Shown here piece after piece: positions 4,682 to 36,776 of a stretch of 64,000 bases of DNA (position 1 is the stretch's first letter; each line of letters opens with the position of its first letter). Both the position numbers and the translations under genes were made by a program. Origin of the DNA: Asinibacterium sp. OR53 (lineage in GTDB: Bacteria; Bacteroidota; Bacteroidia; Chitinophagales; Chitinophagaceae); assembly GCF_000515315.1 (NCBI RefSeq), contig NZ_KI911562.1, positions 1,384,505-1,448,504 of the forward strand, given 5' to 3'. Under the pieces are notes generated by a model. It searched no databases and had not been told where the DNA came from. It saw only the letters and a program-made list of their open reading frames with translations.

Positions 4682-5269
4682 TTACGGCGTATCGTTATTC
4701 CAGTTAACGTAATTCAATTCGGTGGAACTGTAACGGCCTGCATGGATATAGCGGTTTACCTGGAAACTTTTGTAGGCTTTCCAGTTGCATTGTTCGGTAA
4801 TGCTGGTATCGCCCCTGTTGTACTGGCTCCTGATAAAAACCCGTTTAACGTTATTGCTTTCTTCATCCAGCAATATATCTATTCCCCGGATGATGGCGTT
4901 GTCGTGAGCAGTTGTGTAACTGAGTGTATAACTTTTGGTACCCAGGTCGCGAAAAACAGATTCCCGGTAAAACCCTTTGATATTGGGTGCCGAGATATCC
5001 TTGCTGAGAAAAATGTCTACCCACTGTTTAAATACTTCCTGGTTCAGTGAAACGGAATCTTTTTTACCGTCTTTGATGGTGATGCGGTATATGGGTGCAT
5101 GAACAGATTGTGCATAAGCCAACTGGTCTTTGAAAAAAACGGGTAATGCAAAGAAACCGGCGGTGTCTGCTGAAGCTGTTTGCGGCGCGGCAGGCGCGGC
5201 ATGGTGACCGCAGGCAACAGATAATACCGCTATCAAAAAAACGAAAAGAGCAGGGACTGATTTTTTCAT
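4682..5269 (-). CDS. Predicted lipoprotein of unknown function
   Basis: 195 residues. A lipoprotein signal peptide with lipobox LSVAC (Cys about residue 20) is followed by an Ala/Pro/His-rich linker and one mixed alpha/beta domain. The mature part speaks of a periplasmic or outer-membrane-anchored protein, but I recognise no catalytic motif. Similar short lipoproteins of unknown role are common beside uvrC in Chitinophagaceae-type genomes (general impression, not checked). It precedes uvrC by 10 bases in the same direction. Confidence 0.75.
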   Translation of the reverse strand: MKKSVPALFVFLIAVLSVACGHHAAPAAPQTASADTAGFFALPVFFKDQLAYAQSVHAPIYRITIKDGKKDSVSLNQEVFKQWVDIFLSKDISAPNIKGFYRESVFRDLGTKSYTLSYTTAHDNAIIRGIDILLDEESNNVKRVFIRSQYNRGDTSITEQCNWKAYKSFQVNRYIHAGRYSSTELNYVNWNNDTP

Positions 5270-5295
5270 CCCACAAAATTATCCAATCAACTGCA

Positions 5296-5324
5296 TAAAA
5301 AACCACCGCTGTTACAGCAGTGGT
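5296..5324 (-). terminator. Terminator of the sigma/barrel operon
   Basis: On the minus strand ACCACTGCTG and CAGCGGTGGT (5315-5324 and 5302-5311) form a hairpin with one mismatch, followed by six T residues (the A-run at about 5296-5302 on the plus strand). It lies 24 bases beyond the stop of the barrel-fusion gene at 5348. Confidence 0.75.
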
Positions 5325-5347
5325 AGAAGAATCATGCATACGGGCTT

Positions 5348-6808
5348 TTATTTCGAAAGTTGTTTTGTGATACCGAGTCTCACCCCATAATCAAGCAGGT
5401 ATTCCTTGATGGGGTAGAGGTTGGAATAAGTAGGCAGGTGCTGGTAACGGATCTGCGGCCCCAGTTGAATGGTAGCGCCTCTTGTTTTATACGTAAGGTT
5501 GATGCCTACGCCTGTGTTCACATTCCATTTGCGAAGCAGCGAACCTCCATCGGCATAATGCTTGAGGTCGGTAGACAACAGGTATACGCTTTTGTTGAGG
5601 GTAAAAGTCGGTTGCACAGAAGCTTCTGTATTCACACCAAAATGTTTGCCATCGAGTATTTCCCATTGTAAACCCAGGGGAACAGCTACCTGGTACAGTT
5701 TATTATCGAGTTGCGTTGCACTCAATCCGGAATTATTATGATAGGGTGAATACAGGTTGATATTTTCAATGCCACGGTAATTGATCAATGATATGGTGGC
5801 CACATCGCTGGTGGGTGACTGGAATGTTTCGATATAATACTGCCTGATGTTCATTTGCACCCCTGTTTTGAACTTGAGGTGGTTGCTCATATTGTACAGC
5901 ACTGCAAAACCAAATTCAAGTCCGATTGCAGGCTTGTGACGCACTACCTGGTTAACATCGGAACTGTTGTTCTGGCTCAGGGGTGTGTTAACAGCTGTGC
6001 TGGCGGGTTGTATGATCTCTTTCAGTTTCTCATCGGTGAGTTTGCGATAACTGGTAGAAGGCGTTAGGTAGAACTGGATACCTACTTTGGAATTCCTTTT
6101 CTGGTTAATAACAACAGGCGGATTGTAAGCGTAAGCAGCAGCTTTGTGCGTATTCTCCGTAACCGGTGGCATTGTTGTTTCAGTGGTAGTGGCAGGGGCT
6201 GCTTTCTCGCTTGCAGCAAGACTATTGGCTGTATCCACGTCCTGCCTGTTATCTGTGGGTGCAGTAAATGAAGCAGTACCCGATGAGCGGGCTTTGTTGT
6301 TTTGGGCTGATGCAATCAAAGAAGCAGCTGGCTTCAGGTTGGTGGTTTTGGCAGTGATGGTTGCCATGGTCTTTTCTGTTGCAGCGGTGGCTACAGCATC
6401 ATATCCTACCGTAGGAACAGTTTCGGGCTGCAGCAGTGTTGCCGTTTGCCTGCTGGCCAGTTCCTCGAGTGTAGCTGCAGTGACATGTCCGGATGCCATC
6501 TGTGTGAAATAATTTTCTTGTACAGATCCGGTGGTATGATCTGCCGATGCTGCCAGGTTGTTTTTCATTTGCCCGTCAACCAGCAATGTATGCGCGGCAA
6601 ACCTTGCAGGATGGTTGATAAGTAAAGTGGAAAGGGTGAGTGCGGTAATGATGAAAAGGGCAAAAAAGCTGAGTGCCGGCCAGGAATGGTTTCCATGCAA
6701 CTCCGTGCGGATATTCTTCCAGACATGGTCGGAAGGATATATCCGGTGCTGTTTTACTTCGTCGTGTAAAAACTGCTCAAGTTCGTCTCTGTAGTTTTGG
6801 TTTTCCAT
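5348..6808 (-). CDS. Anti-sigma-like membrane protein fused to an outer-membrane beta-barrel domain
   Basis: About 486 residues from the ATG at 6808 (an upstream in-frame ATG at 6817 would add MFV). Order: a cytoplasmic segment of about 43 residues with an IYPSDHVWKNI motif, one hydrophobic helix at about residues 44-63, a long Ala/Thr/Pro-rich linker to about residue 215, then a C-terminal region of alternating amphipathic strands (EFGFAVLYNMSNHLKFKTGV and others) resembling PorT/OmpA-like barrels of the outer membrane. It follows the ECF sigma gene by about 40 bases. I infer an anti-sigma or sensor role from context and topology; the anti-sigma sequence itself is not a textbook zinc-binding type. 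Confidence 0.7.
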   Translation of the reverse strand: MENQNYRDELEQFLHDEVKQHRIYPSDHVWKNIRTELHGNHSWPALSFFALFIITALTLSTLLINHPARFAAHTLLVDGQMKNNLAASADHTTGSVQENYFTQMASGHVTAATLEELASRQTATLLQPETVPTVGYDAVATAATEKTMATITAKTTNLKPAASLIASAQNNKARSSGTASFTAPTDNRQDVDTANSLAASEKAAPATTTETTMPPVTENTHKAAAYAYNPPVVINQKRNSKVGIQFYLTPSTSYRKLTDEKLKEIIQPASTAVNTPLSQNNSSDVNQVVRHKPAIGLEFGFAVLYNMSNHLKFKTGVQMNIRQYYIETFQSPTSDVATISLINYRGIENINLYSPYHNNSGLSATQLDNKLYQVAVPLGLQWEILDGKHFGVNTEASVQPTFTLNKSVYLLSTDLKHYADGGSLLRKWNVNTGVGINLTYKTRGATIQLGPQIRYQHLPTYSNLYPIKEYLLDYGVRLGITKQLSK

Positions 6809-9201: not shown

Positions 9202-10767
9202 ATGAAGAGAAGAGATTTTTTACGCAATTCCGGAGTACTGATCCCTTCACTGCTGGGGGGATTATCGGTAAAAGCATTCAGCGTTGAAGACCTGTTGATG
9301 CAGGGCATGTTCCTGCCTACCACCGAAACAGACCATGTGCTGGTAATTATTCAGCTCAGTGGGGGTAACGACGGACTGAACACGGTCATTCCCCTCGAGT
9401 ATTATAGTAATTATACCAATGCCAGGAGCAATATTGCCATTCCGCAGCAATCGGTATTGTCTTTGAGTGGCACGCAAAAAGTAGGATTGCATCCGGCCAT
9501 GACGGGACTGCAAAATATGTTCAACGACGGGCGGGTGAAACTAGTGCATTCAGTAGGCTATCCCCAACCCAGTTTTTCACATTTCAGGGCAACAGATATT
9601 TGGATGAGTGGCAGCGACAGCAATGTAACAGTCAACAGTGGCTGGGCAGGACGCTACCTGAATTATGAATATCCCAATTTTCCCAACGGTTATCCTAATG
9701 CCAGCATGCGCGACCCGCTGGCTATCCAGATTGGTTCTATCACATCGCTGACTTTACAGGGACCGGCAGTGAGCATGGGCATGAGCATCAGCAATACCAA
9801 TAATTTCTACAACCTTATTAATGGTGTACAGGACCCAGCACCGGAAACGCCGGCGGGTAAAGAGTTGAAGTTCGTGCGCATGGTGGCGCAGCAAACACAG
9901 CAATATGCGGCCGTGATCAAAGATGCGGCATCGAAAGTAACACAGCAGGTTACCTATCCTACCAATAATTCGTTGGCCGACCAATTGAAAATTGTAGCCA
10001 GGCTTATCAGCGGCGGTTTGCAAACGCGCATTTATATGGTGAATTATGGCGGTTTCGATACGCATTCTGCACAGGTAGACAGTACCGATAATACCACCGG
10101 TAACCATGCCCGTTTGTTGAAGAATGTAAGCGATGCGATCAAGGCTTTTGAAGATGATCTCAAATTCATGAAAGTAGACGACAGGGTAACAGGCATGACT
10201 TTCTCTGAATTCGGCAGGCGCATTAAAAGCAATGGCAGCATAGGAACCGACCATGGATCTGCGGCGCCTATGTTTATTTTCGGAAAGAATGTAATTGGTG
10301 GTGTACTGGGCGATACACCCAATATTGCAGCCAGTGTGAGTGTGAACGACAATCTCCCTTTTCAATACGATTTCAGGAGCGTGTATGCTACCTTATTATC
10401 TAACTGGCTTTGTGTTGATGAAAAAGACCTGCAGCAGATCATGCTCAAGAATTTTCAAATGCTTCCGCTGGTGAGCACGGTATCCTGCAAAAAGCCGATA
10501 AACCTTTCGGGAGAAACACTTATCAGCAACTACCCCAATCCGTTCACCAGTTCCACCGTGATCACTTTCAAAACTTCCGGTGGGCATACCCTGGTACAGA
10601 TCATGGATACCAGTGGTAAAGTGATTGCGAACCTTGTTGATAAAGATTATACGGCAGGTAATTACACAATAGTGTTCGACAGCGGTAATCTCCCAACGGG
10701 CGTTTATTATGCCCGCTTACAGAATATGGCCACCCAGCAGGTGCATACCATGCTGAAAGCGCGTTAA
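9202..10767 (+). CDS. DUF1501 protein with Tat-like leader and T9SS sorting domain
   Basis: 521 residues. The N-terminus MKRRDFLRNSGVLIPSLLGG is a twin-arginine-type leader. The DUF1501 core shows the sulfatase/phosphatase-like features of the family (IIQLSGGNDGLNTVIPLE, GFDTHSAQ, MTFSEFGRR, TDHGSAAPMF). From about residue 440 a separate beta-sandwich tail begins (NYPNPFTSSTVITFK, LPTGVYYARLQ), the type A C-terminal sorting signal of type IX secretion. So the protein is predicted to cross the inner membrane by Tat and then be secreted or surface-attached by T9SS. It is co-directional with the DUF1800 gene. Confidence 0.9.
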   Translation: MKRRDFLRNSGVLIPSLLGGLSVKAFSVEDLLMQGMFLPTTETDHVLVIIQLSGGNDGLNTVIPLEYYSNYTNARSNIAIPQQSVLSLSGTQKVGLHPAMTGLQNMFNDGRVKLVHSVGYPQPSFSHFRATDIWMSGSDSNVTVNSGWAGRYLNYEYPNFPNGYPNASMRDPLAIQIGSITSLTLQGPAVSMGMSISNTNNFYNLINGVQDPAPETPAGKELKFVRMVAQQTQQYAAVIKDAASKVTQQVTYPTNNSLADQLKIVARLISGGLQTRIYMVNYGGFDTHSAQVDSTDNTTGNHARLLKNVSDAIKAFEDDLKFMKVDDRVTGMTFSEFGRRIKSNGSIGTDHGSAAPMFIFGKNVIGGVLGDTPNIAASVSVNDNLPFQYDFRSVYATLLSNWLCVDEKDLQQIMLKNFQMLPLVSTVSCKKPINLSGETLISNYPNPFTSSTVITFKTSGGHTLVQIMDTSGKVIANLVDKDYTAGNYTIVFDSGNLPTGVYYARLQNMATQQVHTMLKAR

Positions 10768-10771
10768 TACC

Positions 10772-11308
10772 ATGACCCTACGTTTCTGTTGGCAGTCCAG
10801 CGGCTTCTGCCAGTCGACAGAACTCATCCGTCTGACATCCGGTGACATCTGCCTTCAGGCGGATCTCGCCCGTCTCCAGTCAGACCGTGTCCGCCTCCAG
10901 GCGGATCACATCCGTCTTGAGTCAGATCACATCCGTCTGACGTTTGGTGGCATCTGCCTTCAGGCGGATCTCGCCCGTCTCCAGTCAGACCGCGTCCGCC
11001 TCCAGGCGGATCACATCCGTCTTGAGTCAGATCACATCCGCCTGACGTTTGGTGGCATCTGCCTTCAGGCGGATCTCGCCCGTCTCCAGTCAGACCGCGT
11101 CCGCCTCCAGGCGGATCACATCTGTCTTGAGTCAGATCACATCCGTCTGACGTTTGGTGGCTTCTTCCAGACTGCAGAACTCACTGTACGATTGATAAGT
11201 GGCTCTGTTTGGTCGACAGCTGACTCCGTTCGGTCAACAGATCATTTCTACCAGACGAAAGGCGGTTTCTGCCAGTCGACAAAACTTGCCGGTCAAGAAA
11301 AGGTTTGA
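10772..11308 (+). CDS. Doubtful ORF of heptapeptide repeats in a tandem array
   Basis: 178 codons entirely inside a 21-bp tandem array, so the product is a chain of 7-residue repeats such as ARLQSDR, VRLQADH, IRLESDH, IRLTFGG. It begins 4 bases after the DUF1501 stop. Of the three forward frames, only this one stays open through the whole array including its degenerate ends, which favours coding; but there is no signal peptide, no domain I know and no clear ribosome site. A 21-bp period never shifts frame, so an open frame can also arise by chance. Leu sits at one fixed heptad position and Asp/Ser at others. Confidence 0.35.
   Translation: MTLRFCWQSSGFCQSTELIRLTSGDICLQADLARLQSDRVRLQADHIRLESDHIRLTFGGICLQADLARLQSDRVRLQADHIRLESDHIRLTFGGICLQADLARLQSDRVRLQADHICLESDHIRLTFGGFFQTAELTVRLISGSVWSTADSVRSTDHFYQTKGGFCQSTKLAGQEKV
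10807..11289 (+). repeat. 21-bp tandem repeat array with 105-bp higher-order units
   Basis: Twenty-three consecutive 21-bp units can be aligned end to end without a gap. The middle is organised in three near-identical 105-bp blocks of five different units each (10849-10953, 10954-11058, 11059-11163), differing at only a few bases. The outer units (10807-10848 and 11164-11289) are diverged but keep the period; the first and last share CTGCCAGTCGACA. Many units hold short palindromes such as TCCGCCTCCAGGCGGA. 21 bp equals two turns of B-DNA. Confidence 0.95.
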
Positions 11309-11389
11309 TAATTTTTTTACTAACTTTCTAATGGCTGACGTTTAGGGTTGCCATATTTTTTTTGCTACCAACATCTATAAAACAAAAAC

Positions 11390-13504
11390 ATGAAGAAGAT
11401 AATCTTTTCTATTGCAATACTACTATCAGCTTCTGCAATTCTGAATGGACAACCAATTCAATACCCCATAACGAAAACGGTAGAGCAAACGGATAATTAT
11501 TTCGGCACCCAAATCAATGATCCGTATCGTTGGTTAGAAAATGACACCAGTGAAGAAACAAAAGCATGGGTAAAAGAAGAAAATAGTGTTACACATGAAT
11601 ATCTTTCAAAGATTCCGTTCAAAGATAAGATTCGTAGCCGCCTGACAGAATTGTGGAACTATCCCAAATATGGGGCGCCTCATAAAATAGGAGAGTGGTT
11701 TGTTTTTAGTAAAAACGATGGCCTTCAAAATCAATCGGTCTTATATGTGCAAAAAGGATTAAACGGAGCACCCGAAGTTTTGCTTGATCCTAACAAATTA
11801 TCTTCCGATGGAACTGTCGCGTTGCAAGCAACTGCATTTTCCAAAAAACAAAAATATTTCGCCTACGCTGTTGCTGCTTCGGGTAGTGATTGGCAAGAGA
11901 TTTATGTAATGAATTTTGCAACAAAGCAGCTGCTGAAAGATAAAATTGAATATGTGAAGTTCACCGATATGAGCTGGTCAGGAGATGATGGATTTTATTA
12001 CAATGGTTATGATAAACCGGCTGATGAAAAGACAAAATATTCAGCTAAAACAGAATATCAAAAAGTGTTTTATCATAAAATAGGCACATCGCAAAACGAG
12101 GATAGATTAATTTATCAGGACAAAGAACATCCTTTGCGTTATGTATGGGCAGGGCTCACAGAAGACCAACGGTTTTTGGTATTGAGCATTTCAGAAGGAA
12201 CAGATGGGGCAGAAATTAAAGTAAAAGATTTGCATGATGAAAACGCAAGAGACTTTACAACTATTATTTCGGGCTTTAAAACCAATGCAGGCGTAATAGA
12301 TAATGTTGGCAGCAGGATTCTGTTACATACAAACAATGAAGCGCCTAATTTCAAGGTAGTGTTGCTTGATCCCGCGCATCCTGAACCTTCTAATTGGAAA
12401 ACCATTATTCCCGAGCAAAAAGAAACATTGGATGGTGTAAGAACCGGTGGCGGGAAATTGTTTGCCAACTATTTGAAAGATGCTAATACATTGATTAATC
12501 AATACAGTTACAGCGGTAAGCTGGAGAGAAAAATAGCATTACCCGGAGTAGGCACTGCTGCTGGATTTGGCTGCAAGAAAGAAGATAGTTTCTTCTTCTA
12601 CACATTCACGTCTTTTACTTACCCTGTCACTATTTTTAAGTATGATATAGCAACAGGCAAATCTACTTTGTTCCGTAAATCGGAAGTGAAGTTCAATCCG
12701 GAGGATTATGAAACCAAGCAAGTTGCTTACCCAAGTAAAGATGGAACTAAAGTGCCGATGTTCATCACGTATAAAAAAGGATTGAAATTAAATGGCAACA
12801 ACCCGACTTTGCTATATGCTTACGGCGGCTTCAATATTAATCTCACACCGGCATTTTCTGTATCTAATATGGTATTCCTGGAAAACGGAGGCGTGTATTG
12901 TCAGGCCAATCTTCGTGGCGGCGGTGAATATGGAGAAAGTTGGCACAAAGCCGGAATGTTGGATAAAAAACAGAATGTATTCGATGATTTAATTGCCGCT
13001 GCCGAATATTTGATTAAAGAAAAATACACAAACCCTGAAAGGTTGGCTATCCGGGGTGGAAGCAATGGTGGTTTGTTGACCGGTGCTTGTTTAACGCAAA
13101 GGCCGGATTTGTATAAAGTAGCCATTGTACAAGTAGGCGTATTGGATATGTTGCGTTATCATAAATTCACTGTGGGCTGGGGTTGGGCGGTAGAATATGG
13201 CAGTAGCGACAAAAAAGAGCAGTTTGATTATCTGGTGAAATATTCTCCATTGCATAATATTAAAAAAAGCACTTGTTACCCGGCAACGTTGATTACTACT
13301 GCCGATCATGACGATCGTGTGGTACCTGCGCATTCATTTAAATTTGCGGCAACTTTGCAACCAGCCCAAGGTTGCAATAATCCGGTATTGATTCGCATTG
13401 ACAATAAAGCCGGACATGGCGGAGGTAAGCCTACTTCTAAACTGATAGATGAAGCAGCAGACATTTGGAGTTTTGTGTTTTATAATATGGGAGTAAAGTT
13501 ATAA
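11390..13504 (+). CDS. Prolyl oligopeptidase family serine peptidase (S9A)
   Basis: 704 residues, the usual length. A signal peptide (about residues 1-20, ending ILNGQ) places it in the periplasm. An N-terminal beta-propeller (from IQYPITKTVEQTDNYFGTQI, with the DPYRWLE motif) is followed by the alpha/beta-hydrolase domain with nucleophile motif RGGSNGG (Ser about 557), Asp in DHDDRV (about 641) and His in GHGGG (about 675). It cleaves short peptides after proline. Base composition is unlike its neighbours: 12001-12060 is 19/60 G+C, whereas 14641-14700 in the next large gene is 32/60. This suggests a different history, perhaps transfer. Confidence 0.95.
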   Translation: MKKIIFSIAILLSASAILNGQPIQYPITKTVEQTDNYFGTQINDPYRWLENDTSEETKAWVKEENSVTHEYLSKIPFKDKIRSRLTELWNYPKYGAPHKIGEWFVFSKNDGLQNQSVLYVQKGLNGAPEVLLDPNKLSSDGTVALQATAFSKKQKYFAYAVAASGSDWQEIYVMNFATKQLLKDKIEYVKFTDMSWSGDDGFYYNGYDKPADEKTKYSAKTEYQKVFYHKIGTSQNEDRLIYQDKEHPLRYVWAGLTEDQRFLVLSISEGTDGAEIKVKDLHDENARDFTTIISGFKTNAGVIDNVGSRILLHTNNEAPNFKVVLLDPAHPEPSNWKTIIPEQKETLDGVRTGGGKLFANYLKDANTLINQYSYSGKLERKIALPGVGTAAGFGCKKEDSFFFYTFTSFTYPVTIFKYDIATGKSTLFRKSEVKFNPEDYETKQVAYPSKDGTKVPMFITYKKGLKLNGNNPTLLYAYGGFNINLTPAFSVSNMVFLENGGVYCQANLRGGGEYGESWHKAGMLDKKQNVFDDLIAAAEYLIKEKYTNPERLAIRGGSNGGLLTGACLTQRPDLYKVAIVQVGVLDMLRYHKFTVGWGWAVEYGSSDKKEQFDYLVKYSPLHNIKKSTCYPATLITTADHDDRVVPAHSFKFAATLQPAQGCNNPVLIRIDNKAGHGGGKPTSKLIDEAADIWSFVFYNMGVKL

Positions 13505-13585: not shown

Positions 13586-13614
13586 TTGTAAATCAACCAT
13601 ATTTCCTATTTTTG
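13586..13614 (+). promoter_or_regulatory. Bacteroidota-type promoter
   Basis: TTG at 13586-13588, 18-base gap, TATTTTTG at 13607-13614 (perfect TAnnTTTG). It would start transcription near 13620, just ahead of the TTG-start small gene at 13636 and the TonB receptor behind it. Confidence 0.6.
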
Positions 13615-13635
13615 CAACAATGTAACAAATAGCTA

Positions 13636-13986
13636 TTGCACCCCTCATCGGTCATACATCGTTTACTGGCAGGATGGTTGCTGTTGTTTTTCGCTTTCAG
13701 CATCACCCCTAAAAAATTCCTGCACAACCTGGTTGCCAACCACCGGGACGCGACTGCAATAAATTTTTCCAGGGAAGACAAGAGCGCCAGCCAATTGAGT
13801 AAGGCCGGTTATCATTGTCCCTGTGAACAATTGGTGGTGCAAACACCTTTTGTTTATCAACCTGCAACCATTGATTATGCAGTTGTTCCTGTGTTCGTTG
13901 TTTACCAGGATCAACATTTTGTTTCTATTCATACCGTCACTCCATATGTATCTTTTCTTCGAGGCCCTCCTGCGTTGAACGCTTAA
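13636..13986 (+). CDS. Small predicted membrane/exported protein with TTG start
   Basis: 116 residues. An N-terminal hydrophobic helix (LLAGWLLLFFAFSITPKKFL) is followed by a short domain with a CPCEQL motif and His residues. There is no ATG; the only candidate start is TTG at 13636, one codon after an in-frame TAG, and a good promoter ends at 13614. It precedes a TonB-dependent receptor by 94 bases. Small proteins of this kind with Cys/His pairs often sit in front of metal-uptake receptors in Bacteroidota, so a metal-related role is possible, but this is inference. Confidence 0.6.
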   Translation: MHPSSVIHRLLAGWLLLFFAFSITPKKFLHNLVANHRDATAINFSREDKSASQLSKAGYHCPCEQLVVQTPFVYQPATIDYAVVPVFVVYQDQHFVSIHTVTPYVSFLRGPPALNA

Positions 13987-14080
13987 AGTAGTATAATATC
14001 CTCATTCTAAGATTTGGCCGGAAAGTTGCATTACTGCACAACCGGTTGTTTTTATCATTCTGTTTATAATCTCATCGCGT

Positions 14081-16570
14081 ATGAAAAAGGCCATGAAATT
14101 TTTCAGCCTCTTGTTGTGTGTAAATATTTTTTCCTTCATCATTGCAACCGCAAAACCTGTTGTTTTTTTTGGTGATGAAACGCTGAAAGGGGTGGTAACC
14201 GATAACAAAACCCATCAACCATTGCGCGGGGCAGCGATATTGATCCCTGACCTGAAACTGGGTGTTGCGGCAGATTCGCTCGGGCATTATGAGTTTAAAA
14301 AACTGCCCGCAGGAACTTTTTTAGTAGAAGTAAAATTTGAAGGTTATAAAAGCATTGCCAAAAATGTGTTGATCAGGGGCGATGTAAACCAGGATTTTCA
14401 GTTGGAAGAAAGCGCTACCGAGATCAGTGAAGTGGTGGTTACCGGAACCTCCAAAGCTACACAGATCAAACGAAACCCGGTTCCCATTGTAACGGTGAGT
14501 CACGATTACCTGACTTCAAACCTCAGCACGAATGCCATTGATGCCATTGCCAAAGTGCCGGGTATCCGTGCTGTAACTACCGGCCCGAATGTATCCAAAC
14601 CCTTCATCCGCGGACTGGGTTATAACCGCATCCTTACGTTGTACGATGGTATCAGGCAGGAAGGCCAGCAATGGGGTGATGAGCACGGTATCGAAGTAGA
14701 CGCCTATGCTATAGACAAAGTGGAAGTGATCAAAGGACCGGCCAGCCTGAGTTATGGCTCCGATGCATTGGCAGGTGTGGTGAACCTCATACCCGTACCT
14801 TCAGCGCCAGAGGGAAAAATGATCGGTAATGTTACCATGGAATACCAGACCAATAACAAATACCTGGGTGGTTCGGCTATGCTGGGCGCTGCCAAAAATG
14901 GTTTTGAATGGTCGGGACGGATCTCTCACAAACAAGCTACCAATTACCAGAACAAATACGATGGAAGAGTATATGGTACCGGATTCAGTGAAACCGACGC
15001 GAATGCATCTCTTGGTTTGCATGGTAAATGGGGGTACTCTCACCTCAACCTGGTATTGTTCGATAATTTACAGGAGATACCCGATGGTAGTCGCGACAGT
15101 GCTACCAGGGCTTTTACCAAACAGATTACGGAAGCAGATACGCTTCGTCCCATTGTACCTGCATCTGAACTGAATAGTTATAGTATCAACACGATACACC
15201 AGCATGTGCAGCACTACCGTGCATTCCTCAATAATAATTTCATCATTGGCAACGACCGGCTCGACGTGAATCTGGGATTCCAGCGGAGTGTGCGCAGGGA
15301 ATACAGTCACCCGGTATTATCTACTATCCCTGGGCTATTCCTTCAACTGAATTCATACACCTATGACGTCAAATACCATTTCGCAGAAAAAAACAACTGG
15401 AATGCCAGCATCGGTATCAATGGCATGTACCAGGAAAATCATGTTGAAAAAGGAACCGACTTCATCATTCCTTCTTACAAACAATTCGATTTTGGTCCCT
15501 TTGCTTTGTTGAAGAAGAGCATTGGCAAGCTGGATATTGCAGGAGGATTGCGTTATGATATCCGTTCATTCAACAACAATGCCCTTTACACCAAACCCGA
15601 TCCGGTAACAGGTTTTGACAAAGTTTATTACGGACCAGTTACAGCAGCAGATACGGCTGTTTTCAATAAATACAGCCATACATTCAGCGGCTTCTCCGGA
15701 AGTATTGGCGCCACTTACAATTTCTCCGAACAATTCTCCGTGAAGTTCAACCTGGCAAGAGGTTTCAGGGCGCCCAATATTGCAGAGATATCCGCCAACG
15801 GCGTGCATCCCGGAACTAATATTTACCAAATTGGTAATGACCAGTTCCAGCCTGAGTTCAGTTTGCAGCAAGATCTGGGGTTTGTGTATTCATCCAAATA
15901 CGCGGTGATACAACTGAACCTGTTCAACAACAGCATCAGCAATTATATTTATAACCAGAAATTGCTGGCTGCGAACGGACAGGATTCGGTGATAGTAACT
16001 GGTAACCAGACTTTCAAATACCAGTCGGGCAAGGCCGATCTGTATGGTGGTGAACTGAGTGTTGACCTGCATCCTGTAAAGGCATTGCATTTCGAAAACA
16101 GCCTTTCTATTGTGTATGCGCAAAACAAGAGTGCCGGATCAAAAGATGCGGACAGTACCCGCTATCTGCCCTTTATTCCACCAGTACATGGTGTTTCGGA
16201 ACTACGCTTTGATTTTGATATCAAAAACGCCGGTATCAAACACGGTTTTGCGAAAGTGCAGGCAGAATATTATGCCGCACAAAACAGGGTCTTCACTGCT
16301 TACGGAACGGAGACAGCTACACCGGGATATGCGTTGTTGAATGCTGGTTTGGGAGGAAGCCTTGTGAACAGGAGAGGTAATCCCTGGGTGAGCATCTATA
16401 TCCTGGGTAATAACCTGCTAAATACAGGCTACCAGGATCACCTGAGCAGGCTTAAATATTTTGAACCTTATCCGGGCAATTTCACCGGCCGCAATGGTAT
16501 TTACAATATGGGACGGAATATTTCCTTCAAGCTGAGCTTTCCCATCAGCTATAGCTTAAAAAAATCCTAA
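14081..16570 (+). CDS. TonB-dependent outer membrane receptor, ZnuD-like
   Basis: 829 residues. A signal peptide (about 1-25) is followed by a carboxypeptidase-regulatory-like domain (LKGVVTDNKTHQPLRGAAIL), the plug (IKRNPVPIVTVSHDYLTSN, VPGIRAVTTGPNVSKPFIRG, DKVEVIKGPASLSYGSDALA) and a 22-strand barrel region ending in an aromatic-rich terminus. The plug motif LYDGIRQEGQQWGDEHGIE is typical of the receptors in this phylum that resemble the zinc/haem receptor ZnuD. It imports a metal complex or other small ligand with TonB energy; the ligand is not shown by sequence. Likely one operon with the small gene ahead. Confidence 0.92.
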   Translation: MKKAMKFFSLLLCVNIFSFIIATAKPVVFFGDETLKGVVTDNKTHQPLRGAAILIPDLKLGVAADSLGHYEFKKLPAGTFLVEVKFEGYKSIAKNVLIRGDVNQDFQLEESATEISEVVVTGTSKATQIKRNPVPIVTVSHDYLTSNLSTNAIDAIAKVPGIRAVTTGPNVSKPFIRGLGYNRILTLYDGIRQEGQQWGDEHGIEVDAYAIDKVEVIKGPASLSYGSDALAGVVNLIPVPSAPEGKMIGNVTMEYQTNNKYLGGSAMLGAAKNGFEWSGRISHKQATNYQNKYDGRVYGTGFSETDANASLGLHGKWGYSHLNLVLFDNLQEIPDGSRDSATRAFTKQITEADTLRPIVPASELNSYSINTIHQHVQHYRAFLNNNFIIGNDRLDVNLGFQRSVRREYSHPVLSTIPGLFLQLNSYTYDVKYHFAEKNNWNASIGINGMYQENHVEKGTDFIIPSYKQFDFGPFALLKKSIGKLDIAGGLRYDIRSFNNNALYTKPDPVTGFDKVYYGPVTAADTAVFNKYSHTFSGFSGSIGATYNFSEQFSVKFNLARGFRAPNIAEISANGVHPGTNIYQIGNDQFQPEFSLQQDLGFVYSSKYAVIQLNLFNNSISNYIYNQKLLAANGQDSVIVTGNQTFKYQSGKADLYGGELSVDLHPVKALHFENSLSIVYAQNKSAGSKDADSTRYLPFIPPVHGVSELRFDFDIKNAGIKHGFAKVQAEYYAAQNRVFTAYGTETATPGYALLNAGLGGSLVNRRGNPWVSIYILGNNLLNTGYQDHLSRLKYFEPYPGNFTGRNGIYNMGRNISFKLSFPISYSLKKS

Positions 16571-35210: not shown

Positions 35211-36776
35211 ATGGACCAGACAGTTGTCTCGATAATTATTGGAGTTGTTGCTTTGATCGTAGGCCTTATAGCGGGTAAGCTGATTTTCGCCAAAAACACC
35301 CAGAAAAAAGTAGAAGAAGCCGAAATCCAGGCCAAAAACATCGTCAAAGAAGCCGAACTCAGGGCCGAGACCATCAAAAAAGAAAAACAGCTCGAAGCCA
35401 AAGAACGTTTTGTGCAACTCAAGGCAGAGCACGATAAAGAGGTATTGGAGCGTAACCGCAAGATAGGTGAGTCGGAAAACCGCGCCAAGCAGAAAGAGAT
35501 CACGATTAACCAGAAAGAAGCGGCGCTGGACAAGCAGATGAAGGAGAATGAGGCCATCAAGGAAAACCTGAACCGTCAGATCGAGGTGGTGAACCTCAAG
35601 CGTACCGAACTGGAAAAACACCAGGAAGAACATATCCGCCGGCTGGAAAAAATAGCCGGACTGAGCGCCGAAGAAGCACGTGCACAGTTGGTGGAAAGCC
35701 TGAAACAGGAAGCGCATACCCGTGCCTTGGCTTTGCAGCAGGAGATCATTGAAGATGCCAAGCAGAAAGCCAATAAAGAAGCCCGTAAGATCGTGATACA
35801 ATCGATCCAGCGTACGGCTGCCGAGCAGACCATTGAAAATACCGTTACCGTTTTCAACCTGGAAACCGATGAGATCAAGGGCCAGATCATTGGCCGTGAG
35901 GGTCGTAATATCCGCGCCATTGAAGCGGCAACGGGTGTTGACCTGATTGTGGACGATACTCCCGAAGCCATTGTGCTTTCTTCTTTCGATCCATTGAGAA
36001 GGGAGATTGCCCGTTTGAGCTTGCAAAGACTGGTAGCGGATGGCCGTATACACCCTGCCCGTATTGAGGAAGTAGTTGAAAAGACCCGCCGCCAGTTGGA
36101 AGAGCAGGTGATGGAAATAGGAGAGCGCACTGTTATTGAAATGGGTATTCATGGATTGCATAAGGAACTGGTGCGTATAGTAGGTAAAATGCGTTTCAGG
36201 TCTTCATACGGACAAAACCTGCTCATGCACAGCCGTGAGACCGCCAATTTGTGCGCCATCATGGCTTCGGAGCTGGGTATGAACCCCAAGCTGGCCAAGC
36301 GCGCAGGTCTTTTACACGATATAGGTAAAGTGCCCGATGAGGAGACTGAATTGAGCCATGCCCTGTTGGGGGCCAAGCTGGCTGAAAAATATGGAGAGAA
36401 CCCCGCTGTGGTGAATGCGATCGGCGCCCACCACGATGAGATGGAGATGCAATATGTGATCTCGCCCATTGTACAGGCTTGTGATGCCATCAGCGGCGCC
36501 CGTCCCGGTGCCCGCCGCGAGATCATGCAGCAATACCTCCAGCGTATCAAAGACCTGGAGAACCTGGCCCTGGCTTATCCTGGCGTGGAAAAAGCCTATG
36601 CTATCCAGGCCGGCAGGGAGTTGCGGGTGATCGTGGAAGCAGAAAAAGTGTCTGATACCGACAGCGACAAGCTCAGCTTCGAAATAGCCCAAAAAATACA
36701 GACCGAAATGACCTATCCGGGGCAGATCAAGGTTACCGTTATCAGGGAGAAAAGGGCAGTGAACGTAGCGAGGTAA
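35211..36776 (+). CDS. rny: Ribonuclease Y
   Basis: 521 residues. N-terminal membrane helix ([19 protein letters not shown]), long charged coiled coil to about residue 200, KH domain ([20 protein letters not shown]), HD phosphohydrolase domain with [12 protein letters not shown] and AIGAHHDE. It is an endonuclease that starts mRNA decay at the membrane. Typical length; ATG 35211 begins right at the membrane helix. Confidence 0.97.

Follow-up and report, generated by a model that had tools for sequence, protein, structure and literature searches.

The window analyzed here is a stretch of 64,000 nt from Asinibacterium sp. OR53 (GCF_000515315.1, NZ_KI911562.1, positions 1,384,505–1,448,504 of the forward strand); coordinates below are window positions unless another locus is named. 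Two plus-strand genes frame the feature under study: upstream, a gene for a DUF1501 protein with a Por secretion tail (9202–10767, identified by a Pfam-type family match), and downstream, an S9 prolyl oligopeptidase gene (11390–13504, also a family match). Between the DUF1501 stop codon and the S9 peptidase start lies array A, which begins immediately 3' of that stop codon and is built of 21-bp units arranged head to tail with no spacers. GC content is ~0.58 in the core of the array, 0.44–0.51 in the DUF1501 gene, and 0.35–0.43 in the S9 gene. Elsewhere in the window, a short tandem repeat with a 33-bp unit and 2.2 copies occupies 35314–35384.

The core of array A (10848–11162, plus strand) comprises three 105-bp blocks (10848–10952, 10953–11057, and 11058–11162), each containing five 21-bp units in the order a-b-c-d-e, with one extra e unit in front and all rows in phase. 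Pairwise, the blocks differ at 2, 3, and 3 of 105 positions. Tandem Repeats Finder reported a period of 105 over 10818–11165 (3.3 copies, 95% matches, score 626), and self-identity over 10786–11310 reached 0.54 at lag 21 and 0.74 at lag 105, compared to 0.17–0.34 at lags of 3–49 that are not multiples of 21. A two-unit dyad skeleton (at most 2 mismatches) matched 14 times in the window, always within array A, and never in 100 shuffles. Repeat finding, self-identity, and block comparison thus bear out the nested 21-bp/105-bp structure proposed in a preliminary description of this DNA, confirming that array A is a real nested tandem array.

Diverged units flank the core on both sides. On the left (10786–10847, plus strand) are a diverged row, an a'-like unit (10806–10826), and one clear e unit (10827–10847), assigned from in-phase rows and an alignment to the left end of array B (see below) that carries no shuffle control. 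On the right (11163–11309, plus strand), a degenerate fourth 105-bp block (11163–11267) precedes one a'-like unit. This degenerate block is identical to block 3 at 46 of 105 positions, a level reached in 0 of 2000 shuffles, and in the six outer rows on the right, identity to the preceding row (21 bp earlier) is 8, 4, 13, 15, 9, and 12 of 21 positions. Such divergence at the right edge, set against core blocks only 2–3 positions apart, supports the earlier view that the outer units are diverged and that growth proceeded from the middle. The accompanying count of at least 23 units of exactly 21 bp was generous: about 16 units are clear, and the outer rows match poorly.

A second array and the surroundings of both

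A whole-genome DNA search found a single relative of array A, which we call array B, 471 kb away on the opposite strand of the same 3.7-Mb contig (DNA-search and pattern matches spanning G000:C1:924258–924579). Its units follow the order a-b-c-e, with d absent, and so form blocks of 84 bp, whereas the a-b-c-d-e order of array A gives blocks of 105 bp. The array B blocks differ pairwise at 7, 12, and 17 of 84 positions, with the largest difference between the two end blocks, and comparison of the consensus a-b-c-e cycles of A and B shows 16 differences over 84 positions, of which 14 are transitions. The right ends of the two arrays are alike (score 40.4, compared to at most 34.8 in 300 shuffles) and the left ends align, the latter without a shuffle control; the end units that resemble one another are themselves diverged units. 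Both arrays therefore have a common unit order, a block structure, and decaying edges, and both are oriented along their neighboring genes. A profile of unit pairs (42 bp) produced 36 matches in the genome at E ≤ 1, all in arrays A and B, among the 150 of 811 first-look candidates that were scored. With 3 mismatches allowed, the pattern gave five further isolated matches in the genome versus 4 for the reversed control. Further, more diverged arrays in this genome could have been missed.

The neighborhood of array A differs among relatives. In 21 of 29 relatives, whose DUF1501 loci covered nearly the whole protein, the 1.5 kb located 3' of the DUF1501 gene matches window positions 13,600–15,000 (some matches being short), and a DNA search of all 29 loci did not find the S9 gene behind DUF1501, indicating that a ~2.8-kb stretch containing array A and the S9 gene is absent from this place in at least 21 relatives. 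The remaining eight have other neighbors behind DUF1501. The relatives' loci that were read have a short gap from DUF1501 to another start, and divergence of their intergenic sequence prevents an empty site from being defined. The S9 protein is 72–73% identical to its nearest proteins in other genera of the family and 55% identical to the best of 60 congeners; this closer match outside the genus makes acquisition by transfer from another genus probable. Arrays traveling with S9 were found neither in 29 congener loci with S9-like matches (10 full-length homologues, 51–55% identity) nor in 29 loci drawn from 106 other genomes matching across the order; one S9-type locus (L280) contained a 2-copy 21-bp repeat with letters unrelated to array A.

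Array B lies downstream of a NifU gene and of a separate terminator-like hairpin, and its neighbors are NifU and an ORF without a Pfam match. None of the three genes beyond array B occurred within 1.5 kb of NifU in 29 relatives. Both array sites are therefore places where the gene neighborhood varies among relatives. Two further features were observed near array B (coordinates of locus L004): a ParE-type toxin gene (328–678) about 2.1 kb away on the side opposite NifU, and a repetitive, alanine-rich ORF of 253 aa (4983–5744) about 1.9 kb away on the NifU side, which contains internal DNA repeats of 72–98 bp.

The preliminary description called for a search of related genomes for the unit. With one mismatch allowed, the array pattern matched nowhere in 100 congeners, of which 60 have completeness of at least 90% and contamination of at most 5%, and among 395 other genomes of the order it had one isolated match in each of four, compared to seven for the reversed control. 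A DNA search found no match to the array in 39 relatives, and no such array was present in the 1.5-kb flanks of DUF1501 (29 relatives) or NifU (29 relatives). Many of the compared genomes are incomplete, making absence softer than these counts imply, and the comparison set contains one genome per species. The outcome against which the preliminary description had set its proposal, an array private to one strain, is largely what was found: the array occurs in one genome only, yet at two loci. A phage or plasmid origin was rejected, as matches to plasmid (4 records) and phage (1 record) DNA were at chance level (best E 0.5). Two scans of viral contigs yielded 12 stretches, none flagged as periodic, and 55 stretches, 8 of which were flagged (7 at 21 bp); these eight read like coiled-coil coding sequence.

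Dispersal of the array within one genome raises the idea of a mobile, MITE-like element carrying a minisatellite and served by a transposase in trans. Consistent with this are the two dispersed intergenic arrays with similar end units, the position of array A inside a segment missing in 21 of 29 relatives, and complementary pairs around A (13 nt, 92%; 10723–10735 and 11345–11357) and around B (21 nt, 76%). However, inverted-repeat scores of the flanks did not exceed those of shuffles (P 0.21 for A, 0.07 for B), the two pairs are unlike each other, and the 13-nt pair has its left arm within the DUF1501 gene. Outside the arrays A and B have no flank in common, and the ends they do share are the diverged units themselves; moreover, only two copies were found (150 of 811 candidates scored). 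We therefore rejected a mobile element, which we regard as extremely improbable.

Open frames, dyads, and predicted folding

The open-frame list contains a 178-codon plus-strand frame over array A (10772–11308), which, according to the preliminary description, would give a heptapeptide-repeat protein. If this were a real gene, its products would be 178 aa in array A and 123 aa in array B, where the corresponding frame is open for 123 codons; these products align with 59% identity and 7-residue indels. Of the six frames, this plus frame alone runs stop-free through 10772–11305, diverged edges included, although within the core itself a minus frame is open as well. Patterns of change between the arrays give no sign of coding constraint at the available power. 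The 16 differences fall 4/5/7 across codon positions, without a clear third-position excess, and they cause 8 residue changes versus 9.3 expected from random placement (P 0.32, of low power with so few differences), so that purifying selection on the encoded residues was not detected. This comparison thus largely returned the even change across all three codon positions that had been named as counting against the proposal. As for the open frame itself, under simulated random change at the A–B divergence, the 84-bp cycle stayed open in about half to 62% of cases (the 62% simulation used 13 of 16 transitions, while the listed changes comprise 14 of 16).

Homology and structure prediction point the same way. 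Pfam and NCBIfam searches of the array frame returned only low-complexity-type matches below cut-off (DUF3540 at 21.6 bits versus a cut-off of 27.9), and tblastn against plasmids gave one weak match (33% identity, E 6e-5) to an MMPL transporter of Haladaptatus. The best of five AlphaFold models contained one long helix (residues 10–142), with mean pLDDT of 77–92 for blocks 21–110, but this helix appeared in that model alone of the five; its overall mean pLDDT was 64.9 and its pTM 0.32, and the other four models averaged 26–44. The start codon of the array B frame, furthermore, lies inside a diverged leader unit. With codon positions, residue change, frame simulation, and these searches all failing to support a coding gene, we consider the heptapeptide-repeat protein unlikely and advise against annotating the 178-codon frame as a gene unless further evidence emerges.

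The 21-bp units consist of an imperfect 16-bp dyad (a near-palindrome) and a 5-bp spacer. Among 15 distinct a–d-type units, 78% of dyad cells pair, compared to 26–48% when the dyad is slid; extending the set to 25 rows by including the e units and four outer units gives 70% and 27–49%. The palindromes reported earlier are accordingly real, if imperfect. Predicted folds were more stable than those of dinucleotide shuffles (z −5.7 and −6.5 for the two strands of A, −5.9 for one strand of B), though such shuffling ignores repetition, which inflates these z-scores. Under a stricter control, in which unit columns were permuted identically across all units, 2 of 150 permuted arrays folded as well for the plus strand of A, 9 of 150 for its minus strand, and 0 of 150 in both tests of B. 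That so few permuted arrays fold as well indicates that the dyad is real, more clearly in B.

Whether these dyads are maintained as RNA is a separate matter, and one reading is that array A serves the DUF1501 transcript as a structured 3' untranslated region or terminator whose RNA hairpins are under selection. The fold energies agree with this, as does the position of array A directly behind the DUF1501 stop codon in a region (10600–11500) where no terminator-like site was found. However, the antisense strand folds equally strongly, and array B stands behind its own terminator-like hairpin and would not be needed there. Changes on both sides of the dyad affected one cell versus 4.6 in shuffles (15 units), or 4 versus 6.8 (25 rows), so compensatory base changes were fewer than in shuffles; since arm changes are unmatched in the opposite arm, selection for an RNA stem is unsupported. 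Rfam returned DicF alone (E 0.18 and 0.7, far below cut-off), and no match to the array was found in the relatives searched. The row of hairpins envisaged in the preliminary description is not supported by the predicted geometry either, as the best fold is largely long-range rather than one hairpin per unit. Selection for RNA hairpins was therefore rejected despite strong z-scores, as column permutation weakens the case for A and covariation is absent, and we consider such a transcript element very unlikely.

Conservation within the units is palindromic without covariation, a combination expected of DNA rather than RNA recognition, and its mirror symmetry could reflect a bound dimer. The array may then be a phased set of putative dimer operators with the skeleton TCnnnCTnnAGnnnGA, placed 21 bp (two helical turns) apart, so that many dimers could load on a single face of the helix as the preliminary description envisaged for a bound protein, and acting as a decoy, boundary, or segregation-like site. 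Across 15 a–d-type units, columns 2, 6, 7, 10, 11, 15, and 16 vary little or not at all, 13 of the units have T in column 1, and most of the best-conserved columns are mirror-placed about one center. Entropy symmetry about this center (r = 0.46) ranked second of 21 possible centers (best 0.47), and rose to 0.53, the best value, when e units were included; 16+5-bp arrays from Tannerella MAGs are similarly built (r = 0.62, best of 21). Weighing against operators, the units are copies of one another, so their conserved columns are not independent, and columns 13 and 18 are just as conserved yet lack a conserved counterpart across the center. In the e units most of the right half-site is missing, the genes flanking A and B included no recognized regulator, rep, or par gene, and the relatives searched contained no match. 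On balance, we regard a putative protein-binding array as doubtful, though if the dyads do bind a protein, they would offer a simple natural multi-site array for study.

Known repeat systems and a proposed origin

Bacterial minisatellites (VNTRs) consist of head-to-tail units of roughly 10–100 bp, a description that the contiguous 21-bp units fit. CRISPR arrays contain near-identical repeats split by unique spacers of similar length, and were rejected because the units here are contiguous and imperfect. Plasmid iterons and partition sites are arrays next to a rep or par gene, and were likewise rejected: the contig is 3.7 Mb long, the neighbors are DUF1501, the S9 peptidase, NifU, and an ORF without a Pfam match, and the ParE-like gene ~2.1 kb beyond array B encodes a toxin, not a partition protein.

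The nearest known system is BrickBuilt of Porphyromonas gingivalis, a minisatellite/MITE with 23-nt tandem units in 19 intergenic copies (PMC4596501). As described there, some copies have a leader and tail with terminal inverted repeats of 12 nt that resemble those of IS5-family elements, both terminal repeats are kept in only 4 of the 19 copies, long stem-loops are predicted, and the element is reported only from P. gingivalis and its relative P. gulae (PMC4596501). Likenesses to the arrays here include imperfect, spacer-free, head-to-tail repeats of about two helical turns, dispersed intergenic placement within one species (two arrays, none in 100 congeners), and folding. The unit length differs (21 bp rather than 23 nt), as does the number of copies (two arrays rather than 19), and the 105- and 84-bp higher-order blocks have no mention in the parts of the BrickBuilt report covered. 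Because terminal inverted repeats were not detected (P 0.21 and 0.07, a weak test given that only 4 of 19 BrickBuilt copies keep both), we class the arrays as a bacterial minisatellite and not as BrickBuilt-type. The earlier statement that no element of this form has been described thus needs a qualifier, given how close BrickBuilt comes despite its 23-nt unit (PMC4596501). TAACTGA heptamer repeats of Beggiatoaceae, Cyanobacteria, and some Bacteroidetes are mostly intergenic direct repeats of patchy distribution, often pointing to a start codon (PMC4679880). They resemble array A in being mostly intergenic direct repeats with a patchy spread, but their unit is 7 bp and self-identity of array A at lag 7 is only 0.32–0.33. 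The literature covered, which took in only a minority of subscription journals, offered no other apparently relevant element beyond BrickBuilt and the TAACTGA repeats.

In higher-order repeats of eukaryotic satellites, diverged monomers in a fixed order are amplified as a block, leaving a uniform center and decaying edges. Arrays A and B share this fixed order, blockwise amplification, uniform center, and edge decay, though they are far smaller (0.5 kb), bacterial, and have no known centromere role. We consider it probable that they are a lineage-private, non-coding minisatellite with satellite-like block turnover, and they have the look of a rapidly evolving, non-coding repeat of a general type already known, not of a gene. 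The mode of growth that we infer would begin with a 21-bp imperfect dyad (a 16-bp near-palindrome plus a 5-bp spacer) amplified head to tail, after which unit types a to e may have diverged. A stretch with this unit order would then have reached a second chromosomal place, and unequal recombination or replication slippage, the latter conceivably favored by dyads that could fold on either strand, may have re-amplified whole blocks separately: five units (105 bp) in A and four (84 bp) in B. Such re-amplification would homogenize the middle and leave the edges to decay, the pattern seen in higher-order repeats of satellites. Effects on neighboring genes would be incidental or weak, if any, and the arrays may lack a function.

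Several features are not explained by neutrality alone. Repetition by itself would yield a less regular dyad (2/150, 9/150, 0/150, and 0/150 permuted arrays folding as well), conservation has a modest mirror symmetry about the dyad center, the plus frame is open through A, edges included, with the corresponding frame open in B, and both arrays follow the direction of neighboring genes. Array A is ordinary in kind; its appeal lies in its form, since two arrays within a single genome preserve a record of amplification by blocks. They provide a compact bacterial example of satellite-style higher-order repeat evolution, and since they have a common unit order and unlike block lengths within a single genome, copy-number turnover could be read from them base by base.

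A bolder proposal, to which we give little credence, is that phased-dyad arrays are a recurrent class of bacterial chromosomal element that arose repeatedly in Bacteroidota (this genome and Tannerella MAGs) and perhaps in Bacilli (Gracilibacillus, with 41-bp double units). These would be tandem 16-bp putative operators spaced by exactly two helical turns, maintained through coating by a widespread dimeric DNA-binding protein and subject to higher-order amplification as in eukaryotic satellites. A pattern scan of genome contigs returned 46 stretches, 41 of which were not flagged as periodic. Real arrays were present in three stretches from Tannerella MAGs (L049, L058, and L067) and one from Gracilibacillus (L057); a further stretch (L038) was flagged as periodic, and another (L065) contained about two units by reading. 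The Tannerella arrays share the 21-bp period and the 16-bp palindrome with a 5-bp spacer, but unlike A and B they are more uniform, with near-perfect palindromes, a CTCGAG center in most units, and no block structure seen. Their DNA matches several contigs per genome (four contigs in one MAG). With 150 candidates scored per genome, the window model R1 reached E values of 0.02 and 0.05 in two of the four genomes and had no match in the other two. We treat the Tannerella and Gracilibacillus arrays as analogues, with kinship not established, because the search pattern itself selected this look.

The three Tannerella arrays (L049, 1–310; L067, 2180–2378; L058, 4400–4528) all lie at contig ends. 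Beside the palindrome array in L049, dispersed copies of a ~200–250-bp repeat with long inverted arms were seen by eye at 300–900. In Gracilibacillus halotolerans (L057, 6838–7200), the tandem array has a 41-bp unit composed of two unlike half units and continues at the end of the stretch.
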